64,000 nt of DNA from Hyphomicrobiales bacterium (GTDB lineage Bacteria > Pseudomonadota > Alphaproteobacteria > Rhizobiales > Rhizobiaceae), in assembly GCA_900472785.1 (NCBI GenBank), contig UCJH01000024.1, forward strand, positions 129,449 to 193,448. Reading direction: 5' to 3'. The notes under the pieces were generated by a model. It worked only from the letters and a program-made list of their open reading frames with translations, ran no database searches and had not been told where the DNA came from. Of this stretch, positions 8,484 to 53,638 are shown piece after piece (within the stretch, counting starts at the first letter, position 1; every line of letters starts with the position of its first letter). The translations under genes and the position numbers were made by a program.

Positions 8484-9365
8484 ATGAATTATCGTCACGC
8501 TTATCATGCCGGCAATTTTGCCGATGTCCTGAAACATGCGGTGCTTGCGCGGCTGGTCACCTATCTGAAGCAGAAGGACAAGGCCTTTCGCGTGCTCGAT
8601 ACCCATGCCGGCATCGGTCTTTACGATCTCTCGGGCGAAGAGGCCCAGAAGACCGGAGAATGGCGTGACGGGATCGGCAAGCTTCTGGCCGAGCCCCTGC
8701 CGGCGAAAGTCGCAACCATACTGGAGCCCTATCTGCAGGCTGTGCGCGATCTCAATCCGCAAGCCGATGGCGCCGTTACGCTCTATCCCGGCTCTCCGAA
8801 GCTGACGCGCATGCTGATGCGGCCGCAGGACCGCCTCTGGGCGATGGAGCTGCACCCGGACGACTATGAGACGCTGCATCGTCTTTTCGACGGCGATTTC
8901 CAGAGCCGCATCACGGAGCTCGATGGCTGGCTGGCGCTCGGCGCGCATTTGCCGCCCAAGGAAAAGCGCGGCCTCGTTCTCGTCGATCCGCCCTTCGAGA
9001 TCGATGGCGAGTTCGAGCGGCTGGCCGAAGGGCTGGGCAAGGCCTATCGGCGATTTTCCGGCGGCACCTTCTGCCTCTGGTATCCGCTGAAACAGGGCGC
9101 GCCGATCGCAGCCTTTCACGATGCGCTGAAAGCGCTGGAAATTCCAAAGATGCTGTGCGCCGAACTTTCGGTGCGCAGCGATCGGGACACGACAGGACTT
9201 TCCGGCTCAGGCCTCATCATCGTCAACCCGCCCTTCACCCTGAAAGGCGAACTCGATACGATCCTGCCCTTCCTCAAAGACCGGCTGAAGCTTGATCGCC
9301 ATGCCTCGTCCCGCGCCTTCTGGCTACGCGGCGAGGAAGTCATCGATCGCTCCGACTGGGAATAA
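8484..9365 (+). CDS. rlmJ: 23S rRNA (adenine(2030)-N(6))-methyltransferase
   Basis: SAM-dependent methyltransferase of 293 residues that modifies A2030 of 23S rRNA. The start MNYRHAYHAGNFADVLKH is the family hallmark and selects ATG 8484 (AGGAA 6 bp upstream) over an upstream in-frame ATG at 8421. The SAM-binding motif is VLDTHAGIGLYDL, and the catalytic motif is LVLVDPPFE near residue 165. Normal length. It is downstream of the toxin-antitoxin pair but has its own ribosome site and probably its own promoter. Confidence 0.95.
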   Translation: MNYRHAYHAGNFADVLKHAVLARLVTYLKQKDKAFRVLDTHAGIGLYDLSGEEAQKTGEWRDGIGKLLAEPLPAKVATILEPYLQAVRDLNPQADGAVTLYPGSPKLTRMLMRPQDRLWAMELHPDDYETLHRLFDGDFQSRITELDGWLALGAHLPPKEKRGLVLVDPPFEIDGEFERLAEGLGKAYRRFSGGTFCLWYPLKQGAPIAAFHDALKALEIPKMLCAELSVRSDRDTTGLSGSGLIIVNPPFTLKGELDTILPFLKDRLKLDRHASSRAFWLRGEEVIDRSDWE

Positions 9366-9452
9366 ACGGCGGGCGGGGAATGAGCATTGTGCCGGCCTCT
9401 TGACGATCGGCAGCCACCCGACGCACTGTTTGCGTCTGCTTCGGAGATGACC

Positions 9453-9866
9453 ATGCCGCGCCTGCTTGCAACCGCCCTGCTTTTGCTGACGACCCTTCTT
9501 TCGCCGCCAATCGCATCGGCCGGTGATGCTGACAAGCCGCTGGCGGCCTGCGACAGCCCGTATATCCTCGATATCATCACTGCCCGCTTCGGCGATCGGG
9601 CGCGTACCTATCTGAAGACGGATCTCGAGATCACTCAGATCGACGGGCCCAGGCAGGTGCGCCAGACTCTGCGCGACAAGACACATCGTGTGGGGCGCGA
9701 CTATTGCGCCGCAACGGCTGTCACCACGGATGGCGAGCGACGGGCGCTGTGGTATTTGATCGAGCGCGACTTCGCCTTTGCCAGCCTCGGCTCCAGCGTC
9801 GAGTTCTGCCTCAGCGATCTTGATCCCCAGCACATCTACGGCGCGCATTGCGCATCTCTGCGCTGA
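9453..9866 (+). CDS. Small exported protein of unknown function
   Basis: About 137 residues with a signal peptide (MPRLLATALLLLTTLLSPPIASAG). ATG 9453 has GGAG at a good 6-bp spacing; ATG 9447 is in frame but too close. The mature domain has four Cys (ACDSP, DYCAAT, EFCLSD, AHCASL) that may form two disulfides in the periplasm. I do not recognise the family. It ends 5 bp before the RNase T2 gene, suggesting co-transcription; a shared role in periplasmic or extracellular nucleic acid use is only a guess. Confidence 0.75.
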   Translation: MPRLLATALLLLTTLLSPPIASAGDADKPLAACDSPYILDIITARFGDRARTYLKTDLEITQIDGPRQVRQTLRDKTHRVGRDYCAATAVTTDGERRALWYLIERDFAFASLGSSVEFCLSDLDPQHIYGAHCASLR

Positions 9867-9871
9867 GCGGC

Positions 9872-10630
9872 ATGCCCCTCGTCTTTCGCGTGAAAGCCCT
9901 GAAACCGCTCGCTGCCATCGTGTTCATTGCAGCCGCAGGAACCCTCTTCGGCTGCGACAGTGGCGAGCAGGCGCAGGCGCCGGACAAAAAAGCGCAGACA
10001 CAACCGCAGAAGCATCAGGCTCAAAAGCAAAAGCCCGGCCCCGCAGCTGTGCCGATTGGAACGGGTTTCGACTATTACGTCCTGTCCCTATCCTGGTCGC
10101 CGACCTGGTGCGCAGAAAACGATGCGTCGGGGCGGACCGACCAATGTGCAGCCAAGGCCGGCCATGGCTTCATCGTGCATGGTTTGTGGCCGCAAAACGA
10201 GACTGGCTTTCCCGAATACTGTCGCACCCGCGAATCGGACCGTGTTCCGGAACGGCTTGGCCGGTCGCTTTTCGACATCATCCCGTCTATGGGGCTGATC
10301 GGTCATGAATGGCGCAAGCACGGCAGCTGCTCGGGCCTCAGCCAAACCGACTATTTTGCCGTCGTGCGCGCCGCAAGGCAGAGGCTGAACATCCCGCCGG
10401 CGCTGACATCGGTCGACGGGTCGCGGCAGGCGGCACCCGACGACATCGAGACGGCATTCATCGCCGCCAATCCCGGATTGCGAAAGAATGCCATCGCGGT
10501 GACCTGCGAGGCGCGGTTTCTCGAAGAAGTCCGCATCTGTTACAACAAGGACCTGAGCTTCCGCCCTTGTCCTGCCGTCGATGCGCGCAGCTGCCGGCAG
10601 AAGAGCGTCACGCTGCCGCCGATACCCTGA
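9872..10630 (+). CDS. Ribonuclease T2 family lipoprotein
   Basis: A secreted RNase T2 of about 252 residues. The catalytic blocks CAS I (FIVHGLWPQ) and CAS II (GHEWRKHGSC) are intact, each with its catalytic His, and the SLSWSPTWC start of the fold is present. An N-terminal hydrophobic segment ends in TLFGC, a lipobox, followed by a Gln/Lys/Ala-rich linker, so the enzyme is probably lipid-anchored facing the periplasm. ATG 9872 is chosen over a TTG at 9848. Bacterial RNase T2 proteins degrade periplasmic RNA (compare RNase I). Paired with the small exported gene upstream. Confidence 0.92.
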   Translation: MPLVFRVKALKPLAAIVFIAAAGTLFGCDSGEQAQAPDKKAQTQPQKHQAQKQKPGPAAVPIGTGFDYYVLSLSWSPTWCAENDASGRTDQCAAKAGHGFIVHGLWPQNETGFPEYCRTRESDRVPERLGRSLFDIIPSMGLIGHEWRKHGSCSGLSQTDYFAVVRAARQRLNIPPALTSVDGSRQAAPDDIETAFIAANPGLRKNAIAVTCEARFLEEVRICYNKDLSFRPCPAVDARSCRQKSVTLPPIP

Positions 10631-10664
10631 CACAGGATAATACCAAGCCCAAGAAAGCCTCGCG

Positions 10665-11255
10665 ATGAAGATTCTCTACTCCCCCGCCTCGCCCTACTCC
10701 AACAAAGTGCGCATGGCGGCGCACTATGCGGGACTATCCGCCGAAAGCGTGCTGACCGACACCAATGCCAACCCGCCATCGCTGATCGACAGCAATCCAC
10801 TCGGCAAAATCCCGACGCTGATCACCGACGAGGGCAAGTCGATCTATGACAGCCGGGCGATCCTGCATTTCGTCGATCGGGAAACCAAGGGCAAGCTCTA
10901 TCCGCGCAACCCTGCGAAACGCACCGAGGTCGAAATTCTCGAAGCGCTGTGCGATGGCATCTGCGACTGCTTGCTCGCCATCGTCTACGAAAAGCGTTTT
11001 CACCCGCCGGAAAAGATCCATCAGCCCTGGATAGACAGGCAGTGGGAAAAGGTCGTTCGCGGGCTGGATTATCTCAACGCCAATCTGCCGAAGACCGCCG
11101 CCAAGCTGCATGCCGGACATTTCGCGCTCGCCGCCATGCTGACCTATCTGGAGCTGCGGTTTACAGGCGAATGGCAGAAGGGCCGCCCGAAGCTCAGGAA
11201 CTGGCCGCAGAAATTCCAGAAGTTCTTCCCGGATCACAGCAAGTTTCGCACCTGA
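10665..11255 (+). CDS. Glutathione S-transferase family protein
   Basis: A 196-residue GST. The N-terminal thioredoxin-like half starts MKILYSPASPYSNKVRMA with the SPYSNKV active-site loop, and NPLGKIPTLITDEG plus SIYDSRAILHFVD are the glutathione-binding cis-Pro and acidic motifs. The C-terminal helical domain carries the FALAAMLTYLELRF signature. The substrate is unknown. The gene converges with the porin gene across a shared terminator. Confidence 0.92.
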   Translation: MKILYSPASPYSNKVRMAAHYAGLSAESVLTDTNANPPSLIDSNPLGKIPTLITDEGKSIYDSRAILHFVDRETKGKLYPRNPAKRTEVEILEALCDGICDCLLAIVYEKRFHPPEKIHQPWIDRQWEKVVRGLDYLNANLPKTAAKLHAGHFALAAMLTYLELRFTGEWQKGRPKLRNWPQKFQKFFPDHSKFRT

Positions 11256-22134: not shown

Positions 22135-23199
22135 TCAAAAAAATGCGGCACGGCACAGTTTTTCGAGAGCCGCCGATGCTGCGGTGAGATAGGCCGGCGA
22201 GTGAGGCATATACCGCAAGGTCATATCCGCCCCAAACTTCTTGTGGCCGAGCTGGTTGGCAATCTCTGCCGTGTCCACGCCTTCCATCCGCATCCACCGT
22301 GCACATGTGTGTCGGATGCTGTAGAGCGTCACCGACTTGTCCAGTCCCGCCCTGTCACGTACCCGCCTCACGCCCCGCTCAGGCCGCTCTATGGACTTCC
22401 CGTGGAATTTAATGATGTGACCCTCGGCGTAAGCTGAAAACCGCTCCCTTGCCGCAGGCAGGAGCTTGACCGTGGGCCTGTACTTGTTGGTTTGGCTGCG
22501 ACCTTCCGGGTTCAGGTAAATCAGCCCCGCCGCAAAATCCATCTGCCCCTTCTGGAGCTGCATAATGGCCTCAGGCCGTGCCGCTGTCGCCGTCAGCAGG
22601 AACACTAAGTCCCGCCAGTGCTTTTCCTTGCTGCCAAGGTAGAACCGCCGCAGCTCTTCAACGGATAGCGCCTTACCCTTTTGCCCTTCTTCCGTGACCT
22701 TGAGCATATGGACGAATGGCGAGGAGGAAATGGCGCCGCGCTTATAAGCCCGCCGCATGGCAGCTCTTCCCGCTTCCAGCGTCCGGTTGACGCTATTCTG
22801 CTTGAAGCCCTTTGCCAGAAGCCAAGCTTGGAATTCCTCTTGCTTGCTGACCGAACGCACGTCAGCTACCGAGGCTTCGCCCCAAAAGTCATTCCAGTAC
22901 CGAAGGTGGATTTTGGCGGTCTCATGTGACCGCAGCTTGGATGCCTGATGGTTCCAGTAGTCGAGGAGGACATCGGCAAGCGGCATCTTCGCCGGATTGA
23001 CGTTGTCCTCCCCAAGTACACGGTTCTCAAAGTACCAAGTCGTCAGAGCTTCTTGTGCGACCCCAAAATCGTCTGTGCCGAGCGATGAGCGCTTGGTGCG
23101 TCCATTCTCGATCCAGCAACGATACCAAGCTGGGGAGTTGTCACGTCTCCCGAGGTAGTAGGGTCCGATTTGGAACTCTCGTTTGCTATATCTCGCCAT
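22135..23199 (-). CDS. int: Tyrosine site-specific integrase
   Basis: A 354-residue phage integrase. An N-terminal arm-binding-like segment (MARYSKREFQIGPYYLGRRDN) leads to a core-binding SAM-like domain (residues about 70-175), then the catalytic domain: Arg in LTATAARPEAIM, H-x2-R in SIRHTCARWMR, His in QLGHKKFGADMT, and the Tyr nucleophile in LRYMPHSPAY. The start lies inside the 3' end of the excisionase-like gene, which is common for coupled int/xis control. Its 3' end faces the chromosome, marking the attL side. Confidence 0.95.
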   Translation of the reverse strand: MARYSKREFQIGPYYLGRRDNSPAWYRCWIENGRTKRSSLGTDDFGVAQEALTTWYFENRVLGEDNVNPAKMPLADVLLDYWNHQASKLRSHETAKIHLRYWNDFWGEASVADVRSVSKQEEFQAWLLAKGFKQNSVNRTLEAGRAAMRRAYKRGAISSSPFVHMLKVTEEGQKGKALSVEELRRFYLGSKEKHWRDLVFLLTATAARPEAIMQLQKGQMDFAAGLIYLNPEGRSQTNKYRPTVKLLPAARERFSAYAEGHIIKFHGKSIERPERGVRRVRDRAGLDKSVTLYSIRHTCARWMRMEGVDTAEIANQLGHKKFGADMTLRYMPHSPAYLTAASAALEKLCRAAFF

Positions 23200-43291: not shown

Positions 43292-44172
43292 TTAGGACAC
43301 AGACATCCGGAGGATTTTCATCTTGTCGAAGTTGGTGACATCACCGCCGACGCGCTTCTCGGTGTAGAACTTCACCTGACCATGGCTGGTATAGGGATCG
43401 CGCAGAACCGTGATCGCCTGACGGTCAAGCACCGTGTAAGCGCTCATGTCGCCGTAGATGACGGACAGGGCATTGGACGCTATGGCCGGCATGTCGTCAG
43501 CGAGGTACACAGGCTTTTCCAGCAACGAGAGGCTGGCGCCGAGGACGGAGCCTTGCGGGCCGGACTGTGGTTGCAGGTTGAAGAAGCGGAACACGTTGGT
43601 ACCAGAGAGCTTCAGGTACTCGATGAAGGTGGCACGTTTCATGTTGAGCGAAGCGCGGGGCTATCGTTCTCACCGGACCAGCCTGCCCCAGCCTCATCGT
43701 CATCGAGGATTATCTCGACGCTCTTGTTGCTGGTCTTGATGACGTTGGCCTGCTTACGCATGGGCGACGTTTCGAAAACGCGGCCGTTGATTATCCCGAG
43801 CATCTGTGCGTGGACGAGATAGCCGCCGTTGGCGAGGTTGTCGGTTGACAGGGCCTTGACTTGGTCAACGCTCAACTTGGTGGCATCGGCTCCAGCACGG
43901 AGGAAGCTGATGACAGCTTCGCGTTTTTCGCGAGCCTCGGCGTTGTCAGCCTTTTCGCCACCAGTGCCGACACGTTCGATGACGGCTTGCAGGGAAGCCT
44001 GCTTTTCCTGCATCTCTTGCAGCTTGGCGCCAATGTCTTCCGCAACGCGGTCAACTTGAGCCTTTACGAGGCCGTCAGTATCTTTGGCTTGTTTTTCTTG
44101 GGCCTTTTGCAGCGCAGTCAGGCCACCCTTCAGCTCATCAGCGAGCTGAGTGATCTTCTCCATTTCCGACAT
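43292..44172 (-). pseudogene. HK97-type major capsid gene with internal deletion
   Basis: The 5' part (44172-43639, 177 codons) has the delta domain coiled coil (MSEMEKITQLADELKGGL), the N-arm and E-loop (SVEIILDDDEAGAGWSGEN), ending ALRST then a stop. The 3' part (43642-43292, 116 codons) resumes at the equivalent of MKRATFIEYLKL and has LADDMPAIASNALSVIYGDMSAY and KRVGGDVTNFDKMKIL, the family C-terminus. About 110-130 residues of P-domain and A-domain are missing and the halves are in different frames. The junction happens to make an ATGA overlap, so the fragment could still be translated, but the fold cannot form. Confidence 0.85.
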
Positions 44173-48095: not shown

Positions 48096-48497
48096 CTAGC
48101 TGTTATCAATTTTCAACGTGAACACGGGCGGCGCATTCTTGTCGGCGGAGTGCTCTACTTCCTGCTTATCGCGCCATCCGAAGCGGTTCTTCATATTGAT
48201 AAACCAGAGCGAGGCGCTGAACTTCTCGCCATCGTGCGTGAACAGGCCTTTGCGGGCCTGAACCTGCCACCAAGCCTCCGCGACTTGGCGCCCTTGCTTT
48301 ACGGCTTCCGAAAATTCCTCTTCGCGCTCTTGCAACGCATCCCACAAATCGTTGCTGAGCGCTCGCGCGGGGGAAATGGCGATGGCAACCTTCACTTCAG
48401 CGTCGCTACCGCCCAGACTGTAAATTTCGTGCATGAGGTCACGCCAGCCAGACGGCAAATCGTCTAGCGTTATCGAGGGGCGGCCAACTGTGGTCAT
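48096..48497 (-). CDS. Putative terminase small subunit
   Basis: About 133 residues (MTTVGRPSITLDDLPSGWRDLMHEIYSLGGSDAEVKV...), with an N-terminal helix-turn-helix and a C-terminal FSASLWFINMKNRFGWRDKQEVEHS, matching small terminase subunits that recognise pac or cos sites. It ends 9 bp before terL. A GTG at 48515 would add six residues. Confidence 0.75.
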   Translation of the reverse strand: MTTVGRPSITLDDLPSGWRDLMHEIYSLGGSDAEVKVAIAISPARALSNDLWDALQEREEEFSEAVKQGRQVAEAWWQVQARKGLFTHDGEKFSASLWFINMKNRFGWRDKQEVEHSADKNAPPVFTLKIDNS

Positions 48498-48543
48498 GGA
48501 AGAATCGTGCGACACATCTGGCGGTTTGGCAAGGAAACTGATG

Positions 48544-50259
48544 CTAAGCGGCGGCCGCTAGTTTCAGCTTTGCAGCAGCAAGGTCGGCAACATACCGCTT
48601 CTCATAATCTGCCATGATATCGACGAAGGCTTTCAACAGCGGCTCGAACTTCGAAAAGTCGATGGTGGCTTTCTGAGGCGCGACGATCTTGGTCGCCAAC
48701 TCGTTTTTCCCATAAAATTTCGTCTGATCAAATTTCTTGTTGCTCGGGTTGAACGTGCGCCCATCAATTGTTTGTGCCGTAACCGACGGGTCAAAGAGGT
48801 CTTCAATTGCAACGTGTGCCGTAGTCTTGGGGATCGGCGCCAGATAAAGATTTTCATACACATGATAGAACGGGTCCGTGCCACCAATAGGGGTGCCGAG
48901 GATATTGGTCAGGTGAGCAAATATCTTTGCGGACGCAGCGTCATTATCGACGACCATGATGACCGGATAACGCGCGATATGCTTGAACGCTGATGTGCGG
49001 GTTCGGTAGGAGCTGAGAAGCTTGTGCATCTCATCCGTCCCACCCGAAAGACCCTGAAAAAGTGCGCTACGGTCATTGTAGTGGAAAAAGTCAACGCCAA
49101 GGGTAACGGGGGTAGTCGGCTCGATAAGCTCAGGGAATTTCGCAGCCAAGCGTTTGATGGCGGCCCGGATATAGATGTTGTCGGTCTTTCCCTCTCCGAT
49201 GATGCGAGGGCGAAGAATGCCGTAGAACGACTGGTAATCAAGAAACTTGCCGTAAAGGTCGCTGAATCCCGGCTGATCCAACTTGAAGAAGGGCGCATTC
49301 TTGATGCTGCGGACTTGGTGGATAAATCCCAGCATTCCGTCAACAGTGGCATTTGACACGGGTACACTGCCTGCCTTTGATCCGGTGTGCGCGTATCCAT
49401 GAACGAACAAGTGGTGGCACATTGCGCGTATTTGTTTGTAATACTCGTGCCGGACGTTGAGCTTTTGATTTACAATCAGGCCAGTCGTGTCTTGCCGTGA
49501 ATCTCTCCGCTGCATGCGCGACTTGTCCGGGTTGACCTGGAAGCCAGCGCGGTAGATCAACCACGTAACCGAATCCCCGACGACCCACTTGTCGTCACTA
49601 CCCCGCACCAGACGCGCGATCTCTTGGGGAAACTCCTTCTCGTTTGTCGAGAAAGTGATGTCGTCAGCATAGCGAGTATACGTGCAGTGCAGCGCATTCG
49701 CGAGTTTGTTGAGCTTTATATCGAGAATGTGCGCGATCAGGTTCGAAATGACAGGCGAGCAAGGGCTCCCTTGCGGAAGCCTGTTTTGGTAGCACGCAAT
49801 TTGCGCAATTACGGTTGCGGTTTTCGCTGACAGCTCGAAGTTTCTGTCTTTGATGAAAAACCCGTACACTCTTCCGAAATTGATGGAGTGGAAGAAATCC
49901 TTCAAGTCGATATTGAAAACCCAGCGCTTGTTTCGATGCAACGCCGCGTTTGTCAAAATTGAGAACCCCGGCTTAAAGCCGTGCGAAAGCACCCTCGCCT
50001 TTGTGGTCCTTCTGCTTTCCATCTGCGCTTCAATGCGCATCAGCAGTTCCGCAAGCCGACGCTGGACCAACTTGAGGCGTGAATTCGGAGCCGCTATCTC
50101 CCGGACCCCACCACCTTTTTTCGAGATTGTAAAATGCTTGTAAGGCTTGTGCCGGCGGTGCCAATAAAGCGCATACGAGACATACTCACCCTTGAGGTCG
50201 AGCAGACGAGCTAATTGGGGAAGGTTCCTTGCGTCGCGAAGTGCTTTTAAATCGGACAT
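48544..50259 (-). CDS. Retron reverse transcriptase fused to a TOPRIM domain (Ec67-like)
   Basis: A 571-residue RT. Retron hallmarks: NAALH (residues 104-108, the NAxxH motif), QGSP (163-166), the catalytic YADD (197-200), and TTGLIVN (258-264, the VTG motif). From about residue 350 a TOPRIM domain follows: Glu in EGKTD (356-360) and DND (438-440). RT-TOPRIM fusions are known from the Ec67/Eco2 retron, an anti-phage system; Ec67 RT is of similar length as I recall. ATG 50259 lies 2 nt after repeat a2 of the ncRNA, which sets the start. The C-terminus ends in an Ala/Lys helix. It sits between the small-terminase gene and a divergent nuclease-like gene. Confidence 0.92.
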   Translation of the reverse strand: MSDLKALRDARNLPQLARLLDLKGEYVSYALYWHRRHKPYKHFTISKKGGGVREIAAPNSRLKLVQRRLAELLMRIEAQMESRRTTKARVLSHGFKPGFSILTNAALHRNKRWVFNIDLKDFFHSINFGRVYGFFIKDRNFELSAKTATVIAQIACYQNRLPQGSPCSPVISNLIAHILDIKLNKLANALHCTYTRYADDITFSTNEKEFPQEIARLVRGSDDKWVVGDSVTWLIYRAGFQVNPDKSRMQRRDSRQDTTGLIVNQKLNVRHEYYKQIRAMCHHLFVHGYAHTGSKAGSVPVSNATVDGMLGFIHQVRSIKNAPFFKLDQPGFSDLYGKFLDYQSFYGILRPRIIGEGKTDNIYIRAAIKRLAAKFPELIEPTTPVTLGVDFFHYNDRSALFQGLSGGTDEMHKLLSSYRTRTSAFKHIARYPVIMVVDNDAASAKIFAHLTNILGTPIGGTDPFYHVYENLYLAPIPKTTAHVAIEDLFDPSVTAQTIDGRTFNPSNKKFDQTKFYGKNELATKIVAPQKATIDFSKFEPLLKAFVDIMADYEKRYVADLAAAKLKLAAAA

Positions 50260-50261
50260 TG

Positions 50262-50390
50262 AGGCTTGCGGATACTCGTTTGCCATAAGTAGGACCATAG
50301 TGGACAGTCCGGAAGGAGTGCATAGGGCAGTGCCCGACGCATTGATATCAACTATCGCGAAACACAACAGCAGAATCTATCCGCAAGCCT
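50262..50390 (-). ncRNA. Retron ncRNA (msr-msd) with 13-bp a1/a2 repeats
   Basis: On the minus strand, AGGCTTGCGGATA (50390-50378) and TATCCGCAAGCCT (50274-50262) are exact reverse complements bounding 129 nt directly before the RT start. This is the layout of retron a1 and a2. Just inside a1 the transcript reads GATTCTGCTG, where a branching G could lie; inner short hairpins such as GGGC-ACT-GCCC are possible. The msr/msd border is not determined. No other reading frame is needed to explain the segment. Confidence 0.75.
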
Positions 50391-50421
50391 TAGTAGCAAA
50401 AGAGCCGATTCTTCGCCCTTT

Positions 50422-50427
50422 AGTCAA
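50422..50427 (-). promoter_or_regulatory. Possible -35 box for the retron transcript
   Basis: TTGACT on the minus strand lies 32 nt before repeat a1. The matching -10 is weak (CTCTTT at 17 bp spacing), so this is only a suggestion. Confidence 0.3.
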
Positions 50428-50504
50428 GCCGTCCGCCATGAGATATCTGCAACCAATGCAAGAATCCTGTTAACTTACTGCTGGGGAATCAGGGTGGGTG
50501 AAAC

Positions 50505-52064
50505 ATGACCTTATTGGAGCGCGATGACTGCCGCAGGGAGCTGCGCGATTATCTAGGCCGGGCTCACGATGCCGACTTTCTTGCTTTGATCTGGGCGGTA
50601 GATGCACTGCAATCAGACAGAGTAGCCGAAGCCAAAAAGTACATCCAATTTCCCAAAGGGGCAGATACGAAAGCCATCACCGATAAGCTCGTAATCTATA
50701 CCTGGGAGCTCGAAACTCTCGCGACCATACTCTTCCTAGGCCGGAAGTCCCCTCCAAGCAAAAAGAAGCCGCAAATCAAATGTCAGCGATTTGGTGAACT
50801 CGGGGATGCGGTCAATATGCTTCGTACCCTCGAAAACGCCGAACATGCCCTGCACCTCGACGGCAACAACATCATGTTGGAGTTGCACCGGATCGCACAA
50901 AGGCAGTTTGGGTGGCAGCGCGGCTACATCAAGCCCCAGAACATCTACCGTTTCCTCTATATTTACGGACAGGGGCGTTGTGCCGAATATTTTGAAGAGA
51001 AATACGGGTTATCGATCAACGACTTTTCCCTCTGCGCATTGCTTATCTTTCAGGTTACCTATGAAGATCGACTGATACCGAAACCTGACGCAACGGCGCT
51101 GGGAATCGCTCCAGAGACCATGGACGCAGCTCTTGCAGTGCTTTCCCTTACACTCCAAGAGACCCGGACGAGGGCGAAGGAGATGCGGGTTGCGGCAATA
51201 CAGGCGAATGGCGGCGTAGATATATCCAAGACCGCTTATCAGCCCAGTGTTCTAAGGCAGTTTCCGATCGTTAGAGTGCCTGAACTGGAGAACAGGATAA
51301 TTGCCCCGTTGCCTGAGCTAGTCCTGCACCGCGCAACGGCCGGGCTGTTCTACGACGTCGTCAAAGGTGGCCAAGCGCTTTTAACCGAGGCCAATGCGCG
51401 GTTCGAGCAGTACGGGCGGATTCTTGTTTCCAGATACCTACCTCGTTTTGAGGTTCTGGAAGCTCAAAAATACCAATTCAACAACAGCGAAGCCGAAACG
51501 CCTGACATCTTATTGAAAGATGGGGGTGAGGTTGTCGTCGCTTTTGAATGCAAAGCGACGAAACTAACCTTCGCCGCGCAATACGCCGAAGACCCAAGGG
51601 TTGCCGCCAAACAGGCCTATGATCAGATGACCAAAGGCATTTATCAACTCTGGAAATTCTTCTCGCATTCCAGACGTGGAATATTCACCGGTCATCCTGT
51701 GTCCCCATCCGCCCATGGTATTCTGTTGACGCTCGATACGTGGTTCGCTGCCGCTGAGAAAATGCAGAATGCAGCGACCGAGGAAGCGAAAATACTTGCA
51801 GCAGCTGACCCTCAGATTATAGCGGCTGACATGAGGCCCATCGTCTTTTGCGCTATGGACGAACTTGAGGACATTATTGGTTGGGCGACCGAGGACAGCT
51901 TTCTCGTGCTTCTCGGCAAGGCAGCGCAAGCCAATTACCGCGGCTGGTCTATCACCTCAGTTCAGCGCGACGAGGGTCTGAAAAACACTGAGTGGAGGGG
52001 CTTTGACTTGGACTTTACAGACGTCATGCCTTGGTGGGAGATAATCGACGAACACAAGAGCTAG
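50505..52064 (+). CDS. Nuclease-like protein of unknown function beside the retron
   Basis: A 519-residue protein. The C-terminal half has TPDILLKDGGEVVVAFECKATKL, a D-(x)n-ExK pattern of the PD-(D/E)XK nuclease superfamily, with a strand on each side. The N-terminal part is helical and rich in charged residues (RRELRDYLGRAHDADFLALIW). It is divergent from the retron and alone in plus orientation within the leftward late region, as expected of acquired cargo ('moron'). A defence role is inferred from neighbour and motif; I do not recognise the family. It overlaps the 34-residue membrane gene by 4 bp at its end. Confidence 0.7.
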   Translation: MTLLERDDCRRELRDYLGRAHDADFLALIWAVDALQSDRVAEAKKYIQFPKGADTKAITDKLVIYTWELETLATILFLGRKSPPSKKKPQIKCQRFGELGDAVNMLRTLENAEHALHLDGNNIMLELHRIAQRQFGWQRGYIKPQNIYRFLYIYGQGRCAEYFEEKYGLSINDFSLCALLIFQVTYEDRLIPKPDATALGIAPETMDAALAVLSLTLQETRTRAKEMRVAAIQANGGVDISKTAYQPSVLRQFPIVRVPELENRIIAPLPELVLHRATAGLFYDVVKGGQALLTEANARFEQYGRILVSRYLPRFEVLEAQKYQFNNSEAETPDILLKDGGEVVVAFECKATKLTFAAQYAEDPRVAAKQAYDQMTKGIYQLWKFFSHSRRGIFTGHPVSPSAHGILLTLDTWFAAAEKMQNAATEEAKILAAADPQIIAADMRPIVFCAMDELEDIIGWATEDSFLVLLGKAAQANYRGWSITSVQRDEGLKNTEWRGFDLDFTDVMPWWEIIDEHKS

Positions 52065-53042: not shown

Positions 53043-53291
53043 TTACTTCCCTTGGGTTTTCTTAGGCACCAGCAGGCGCTCGACACGTAGGCCGAAATAG
53101 GCAGGCACGCGCCGTCCGAAGTCGCTTCGTGAAACGGCCTGGTGCAGCTTAGTCTGCGATACCCCAATCTTTGCGGCGGCGTTTTGCTGGCTGCCACAGT
53201 CAGCAATGAACGCGGCAAGCGTGCGCCTGAATTCGGCGGCACTCACGTGCGCTATGGTCTGCATTTTCATATTGGTACTTTCAGTTTTCAT
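53043..53291 (-). CDS. Cro-like helix-turn-helix protein
   Basis: An 82-residue DNA-binding protein. FIADCGSQQNAAAKIGVSQTKLHQAV is a helix-turn-helix of the YdaS/Cro kind. The downstream basic segment (LRVERLLVPKKTQGK) completes it. It shares one base with the gene upstream (TAATG). It could be the lytic switch repressor; no CI-like repressor with a protease domain is found in the window. Confidence 0.7.
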   Translation of the reverse strand: MKTESTNMKMQTIAHVSAAEFRRTLAAFIADCGSQQNAAAKIGVSQTKLHQAVSRSDFGRRVPAYFGLRVERLLVPKKTQGK

Positions 53292-53638
53292 TATTTGCCG
53301 CCGCGTAAGCGTTTGCGGCGCTCGGAAGTTTGCCAGTTCGCAGGCACCTTCCCGGTCCAGCGGTGGCGCTTGTATTTTCCGTGACCGCTGTGGTTATCCA
53401 GCCAGACATGGCCAGCGGGGTCGGCATGGTGGAACAGCAGCCCGGCATCGCGCAGGCGGCTAAACATCTTGGTGGCGTCGTTCGTGCCCATGTTCAGCAC
53501 TGTGCGGGCGTCAATCCAGCCAGTCGCAATGAGGTGGCGGATGGCACGGGCTTGTATGCCCACCTGCGATACCGTTGGCGGCGCCGGGCGTTTGCCCTGC
53601 CAAAGGTTTTTGAGGCTCTGGAGGATGTAGGTTTTCAT
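53291..53638 (-). CDS. Winged-helix-like phage protein
   Basis: A 115-residue basic protein (QARAIRHLIATGWIDARTVLNMGTNDATKMFSRLRDAGLLFHH), whose middle looks like a winged helix for DNA binding. Overlaps the next gene by 4 bp (ATGA). Function unknown. Confidence 0.65.
   Translation of the reverse strand: MKTYILQSLKNLWQGKRPAPPTVSQVGIQARAIRHLIATGWIDARTVLNMGTNDATKMFSRLRDAGLLFHHADPAGHVWLDNHSGHGKYKRHRWTGKVPANWQTSERRKRLRGGK

Follow-up and report, generated by a model that had tools for sequence, protein, structure and literature searches.

An Ec67/Eco2-like retron, probably complete, carried as prophage cargo in a rhizobia-related bacterium

One of the closest known counterparts of the locus reported here is the E. 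coli retron Ec67/Eco2, and the Ec67-type mechanism is already known from that species. In Eco2, the branch base is rG15, which lies directly 3′ of the a1 arm of the noncoding RNA (ncRNA), the msr forms a stem-loop from rG20 to rU42, and rG52 templates the last of the 67 DNA bases (PMC12405507). The msDNA and the RT-Toprim protein form a self-inhibited trimer; on its own, the Toprim domain is toxic and acts as an RNase (PMC12405507). Phage mutants that escape Eco2 carry mutations in denB, although the toxicity of DenB prevented a direct demonstration of its role (PMC12405507). Eco2 has also been associated with tRNA cleavage and translational shutdown (eLife, PMC12956279). The strain of Ec67 is described in PMC8934634; the accessible part of PMC12548924 has nothing on an RT-Toprim I-C type, and the open-access literature that we searched on retrons, Rhizobium and Alphaproteobacteria yielded no report of a rhizobial RT-Toprim retron.

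We analysed a 64,000-nt stretch of DNA, referred to below as the window, in which a first-pass annotation had proposed a retron consisting of an ncRNA and one fused effector gene in a rhizobial prophage. Our analysis supports this reading strongly: the locus is very probably a type I-C (Ec67/Eco2-like) retron, complete in appearance and carried as prophage cargo. The family is already known, and what the locus adds is modest, being a matter of detail: its prophage slot, its neighbour, a model of its ncRNA, and the tight spacing between the a2 arm and the start codon.

The RT-Toprim gene and its prophage

The features of the locus are listed in Table 1. The best start codon of the RT-Toprim gene is the ATG at 50259. 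A mechanically called open reading frame extends further, to a TTG at 50367 (607 aa); we rejected this TTG as the start of the RT, and favour the ATG as the likely start, because the reading frame between a2 and the ATG varies among close relatives.

Table 1. Coordinates of the retron features in the window
Feature	Position	Strand	Basis
a1, 5′ arm of ncRNA, AGGCTTGCGGATA	50378..50390	-	perfect complement of a2
Predicted branch-point (priming) guanosine G50377	50377..50377	-	directly 3′ of a1, as rG15 of Eco2
msr, one stem-loop CTGTTGTG-TTT-CGCGATAG	50341..50376	-	RNA fold; covarying stem that corresponds to the Eco2 msr stem-loop
Predicted msd template of 65 nt, with both ends placed by homology	50276..50340	-	alignment with the 67-nt msd of Ec67 (L026)
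a2, 3′ arm of ncRNA, TATCCGCAAGCCT	50262..50274	-	perfect 13-bp pair with a1
Retron RT (N-terminal) with fused Toprim RNase-like effector (C-terminal), 571 aa	48544..50259	-	PADLOC, Ec67 structure, NF038237

The RT motifs on which the retron reading had been based are all present, with NAALH at residue 104, YADD at residue 197 and TTGL at residue 258; the last occupies the VTG position, where several relatives also have TTG. In PADLOC, the top four models all belong to RT-Toprim_I-C (711, 699, 481 and 481 bits), and the protein passes the NCBIfam model NF038237 (retron_Ec67_fus) with 678.4 bits against a cut-off of 450. Following PADLOC, we use type I-C as the name for RT-Toprim retrons. The best match among solved structures is the Retron Ec67 protein (9lm3 chain E, 9i2f; E ~8e-111), which aligns over residues 2–553. 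The earlier assignment to the Ec67/Eco2 family holds.

Pfam detects only RVT_1 in the protein and gives no match to a Toprim domain; the C-terminal Toprim assignment, which was also part of the first-pass annotation, therefore rests on the near full-length alignment with Ec67 and on individual residues. In this alignment, Eco2 residues E374, D378, D460, D462 and E515 correspond to E356, D360, D438, D440 and E486 in the window, and all five acidic residues are kept in 23/23 relatives that have letters at those positions. The metal-B serine of Eco2, S513, is an alanine (A484) in the window and a serine in 4 of 23 relatives. K562 of Eco2, named as a catalytic lysine in PMC12405507, is a D in the aligned Ec67 protein, which leaves this lysine without a mapped counterpart in the window, and the trimer residue R332 of Eco2 falls in a gap. 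The protein alignment excluded L004, L022, L023, L024 and L027, which are partial or broken, and included L008, which is without the Toprim part. L008, from the same family as the host, has an intact-looking ncRNA and an RT frame of 359 aa at ~310–1523, near a contig end; its best match covers residues 1–320 only, without the Toprim part.

Genes for the small and large terminase subunits, portal, head protease and capsid begin 28 bp downstream of the RT stop codon, in agreement with the prophage setting that had been proposed. A tyrosine integrase domain encoded at 22207–22629 (minus strand; G000:C94:151655-152077) possibly belongs to the same prophage. A terminase search identified 23 related viral contigs; in the stretches of them that were compared, some too short to hold the slot, we found no RT or GapS1-like match at E up to 1e-4. 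In L033, L034, L035 and L041, a distance of ~2.8–4.6 kb with other genes separates the match to the gene at 53291–53638 from that to the terminase small subunit, the latter match being partial in L034 and L035. Related prophages thus carry other genes between 53291–53638 and 48096–48515, and the retron sits in a slot of variable content that precedes the terminase genes. The Pfam matches among slot genes were SRAP (L034), an aspartyl protease with repeats (L038), DUF4231 (L041) and one below the cut-off (L039). A defence island in the related prophages is unsupported: of 10 chosen slot genes, PADLOC recognised only L038, by three weak matches, and left the other 9 unmatched. Among 26 genomes of the genus, that of the window alone has the prophage terminase (E up to 1e-60).

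Upstream of the retron, divergent and 114 bp from the ncRNA, lies a gene on the plus strand for a GapS1-like protein of 519 aa (50505–52064). It matches the GapS1 model NF047931 with 70 bits (E 1.8e-19), which does not pass the cut-off of 320, and it has no PADLOC or Pfam match; judged from its sequence, the protein is at most a distant GapS1 relative. It is possible that this gene is a second defence gene in the same prophage slot. A conserved partnership between the retron and a GapS1-like gene is unsupported in the 6-kb flanks of L002 and L003, where open reading frames of at least 100 aa match, within this part of the window, the retron only.

Compared with its relatives, the major capsid gene (43304–44172, minus strand) is missing ~108 internal residues and shifts frame at that place, so that the prophage is probably defective unless the assembly contains an error there. 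This damage raises the alternative that the locus, although a true type I-C retron by descent, is now inactive, the passenger of a decaying prophage. In keeping with such a loss of function, the metal-B serine is replaced, we found no sigma-70-like promoter upstream of the ncRNA, and the Shine-Dalgarno pairing before the ATG is weak (-2.5 kcal/mol); the serine, however, is missing in 19 of 23 relatives anyway, and the Shine-Dalgarno pairing is weak in many relatives also. Across 48480–50560 there are one promoter-like and two terminator-like sites, no more than in shuffles. We consider inactivity improbable because the RT-Toprim frame is intact, the arms are perfect, the motifs are kept, and identity with the Rhizobium rhizogenes copy is higher for the protein (82%) than for the nucleotide sequence (73%). 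With dS saturated, these values fit purifying selection on the gene.

The ncRNA upstream of the RT gene

The first-pass annotation had placed an ncRNA at 50262–50390, bounded by a perfect 13-bp inverted repeat ending 2 nt before the start codon. The repeat is exactly as described (50390–50378 and 50274–50262), with the two arms 103 nt apart. When the bases of the 391-nt region were shuffled 20000 times, a perfect 13-bp repeat spanning 90–200 nt arose in 6 cases, and the fold of 50255–50400 has a z of -4.6. A motif-blind scan for the best inverted repeat recovered the same ncRNA layout upstream of the RT in 28 of 29 non-duplicate loci, the window included, the failure being L024, a distant viral RT. 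These loci came from 30 non-duplicates among the window and L002–L031, of which L023, whose match begins inside the gene, was excluded before the scan; L001 (the window's own copy) and L007 (judged to be the same contig as L003, with identical upstream sequence) had been dropped as duplicates.

Base pairing is preserved by compensatory change among the 28 sequences. With arms picked as the best inverted repeat and sequences extracted by motif, both of which favour a pairing result, both partners vary in 12 of the 13 a1/a2 pairs and the remaining pair is invariant, and over the whole named structure 91.7% of 605 cells pair, with changes on both sides at 21 of 22 pairs. The covariation score was 0.639, compared with a shuffled mean of 0.294. 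Four of five measures of pairing and covariation, including cells changed on both sides, lay above all 500 shuffles; the fifth, the number of further pair types (47), was reached by 30 of the 500. When the partner was slid by 1–3 columns, pairing fell to 34–42%. Because the A-GA and GAG-T motifs served to trim the sequences in this alignment (A1), invariance of the motifs is built in; in the motif-blind search, the arms ended exactly at these motifs in 27 of 28 sequences, with L002 off by 2 through a mismatch.

The covariance-model search that had been suggested for 50262–50390 gave a single match in the window, at the ncRNA itself (model R1; 102.8 bits), and the same single site in the whole 5.38-Mb genome. 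Among 394 genomes of the family, searched with stricter filters under which weak matches are lost, the model matched eight, the same eight that hold the RT. This result means that there are no orphan ncRNAs, and does not amount to independent discovery, because each of the eight either was used to build the model or is identical to a sequence that was (G222 is L003). No Rfam retron family matched in the window at gathering score, and a search of 50200–50520 at E up to 5 returned only one non-retron match, at chance level. On the evidence of sequence, 50262–50390 is a retron ncRNA with a1/a2 arms, a predicted branch G and an msr stem-loop.

We also weighed whether the repeat-bounded segment is instead a transcription terminator or attenuator, as a strong hairpin beside a start codon might suggest. 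This is very hard to credit with arms 103 nt apart, an msr stem and flanking motifs that match the solved Eco2 RNA, and an RT in all eight genomes with a match to the ncRNA model. Equally implausible is an origin of the RT in a group II intron, DGR or DRT system, to which it has weak model matches that fall far below cut-off (group II TIGR04416, 64.8 bits against 300; Drt2, 38 against 390; Drt3a, 35 against 200), compared with 678 bits for the Ec67 fusion family; a grouping with group II introns, which would have counted against the retron, thus fails as far as tested. We rejected the group II, DRT and terminator readings on these model scores and on covariation.

Predicted msDNA, translation start and likely function

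Priming is predicted at G50377, by homology to Eco2, and would yield an msDNA of ~65 nt that begins 5′-TCGTTTGCC. In the E. coli Ec67 locus (L026), G52 lies 37 bases past the branch G and delimits an msd of 67 nt, with spacing as in Eco2. Folded as DNA, the predicted msDNA is no more stable than shuffles (z -1.0), and the same is true of the Ec67 msDNA (z 0.05).

The retron of the window likely serves in abortive phage defence, a role that we assign by homology. The a1/a2 stem would present G50377, as in Eco2, the RT would prime from the 2′-OH of this base, and the RNA would be copied from A50276 to ~G50340 into ~65 nt of msDNA that stays joined to the msr RNA. This msDNA would keep the RT-Toprim protein inactive in a complex. 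An infecting phage may then damage the msDNA, as is thought for DenB of T4-like phages and Eco2, and so free the Toprim domain, which would cut RNA, stop translation and halt the cell before phage maturation. Carried by a prophage, such a retron would shield the lysogen against rival phages.

The a2 arm ends 2, 2, 2, 4, 4 and 4 nt before the start codon in the six-member clade composed of the window, L002, L003, L005, L006 and L008. Short spacing also occurs elsewhere, in L004 and L030 (2 nt), L015 (4 nt), L009 (7 nt) and L022 (11 nt), and the other 17 members have spacings of 17–37 nt (37 in Ec67), the choice of start codon being uncertain in several members. In the six-member clade, so short a distance would place the ncRNA and the start of translation on the same RNA. 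Shine-Dalgarno pairing in the clade is weak (-2.2 to -2.5 kcal/mol); this alone is not special to the clade, because several distant members with wide spacing are equally weak or weaker. We regard it as a speculative and rather unlikely idea that the a1/a2 stem gates translation of RT-Toprim, or that a leaderless mRNA results when the ncRNA is processed at its 3′ end. If either were true, RNA and effector would be produced in a linked ratio.

Relatives and comparison with known systems

Among the genomes sampled, those with the RT number 8 of 394 in the family (E up to 1e-60), 6 of 397 in the order and 5 of 385 in the class (both E up to 1e-80), with the window's own genome included in each count. 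In a tree of 25 I-C proteins, the window groups with R. rhizogenes, Martelella and three others of the host's family (support 100/99). The tree labels Martelella as Aurantimonadaceae; GTDB places it in Rhizobiaceae. One genome of the host's family has a contig that looks identical to one of Martelella mediterranea USBA-857. The description of the setting as rhizobial is fair in that the nearest named copy is in R. rhizogenes, though it is not proven. The suggestion of a new lineage did not survive, and we rejected it, given the close copies, the position in the 25-protein tree, and the existence of PADLOC I-C models, the best of which matches with 711 bits.

The block of homology with the R. 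rhizogenes copy extends from 50391, a single base beyond a1, to 48591, which is 47 nt short of the end of the RT gene. As this block nearly coincides with the ncRNA and the RT gene, the two seem to be transferred together as one cassette.

One scan of viral contigs contained no RT relative, another only L024, which is 37% identical and without the ncRNA layout, and the exact ncRNA pattern had no match in viral contigs. Among phage records, 54 match the RT-Toprim query; in MT836041.1, an unannotated phage record from human fecal samples, positions 9119–10798 encode a protein that aligns with 96% of the query at 34.5% identity. Matches were present in 420 plasmid records, in 22 of which the match covers 80% or more of the query, in every case at <60% identity, and blastn of the ncRNA region against plasmids gave no match. 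The E. coli Ec67-family retrons L025 and L026 adjoin phage portal and terminase genes, a setting that resembles that of the window. A second E. coli RT-Toprim retron, of the L019 type, is 50% identical to Ec67 and occurs at ≥99% identity in 510 of 5426 complete genomes.

The analysis provides an exact ncRNA map of a prophage-borne Ec67-type retron from a rhizobia-related bacterium, and a 28-member ncRNA alignment and covariance model that cover an ncRNA without an Rfam match. Prophage-borne defence is relevant to rhizobial inoculants, and a compact one-gene retron might supply single-stranded DNA in rhizobia-related bacteria.

Among known systems, the PADLOC models PDLC02966 (711 bits) and PDLC02963 (699 bits) match near full-length, and we saw no difference from them. 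The nearest named copy, in R. rhizogenes NBRC 13257 (L002), has a protein 82% identical to that of the window and a closely similar ncRNA; the 6-kb flanks of L002 and L003, by contrast, have no prophage gene in common with the window. Ec67/Eco2 shares with the window a single RT-Toprim gene with msr-msd directly upstream, the RT motifs, the Toprim acidic residues, the a1/a2 arms, the branch G and the msr stem-loop, and its locus L026 likewise adjoins phage portal and terminase genes. The window differs from Ec67/Eco2 in that the proteins are 39% identical, a2 ends 2 nt rather than 37 nt before the start codon, the predicted msDNA has 65 rather than 67 nt, and S513 is replaced by A484.
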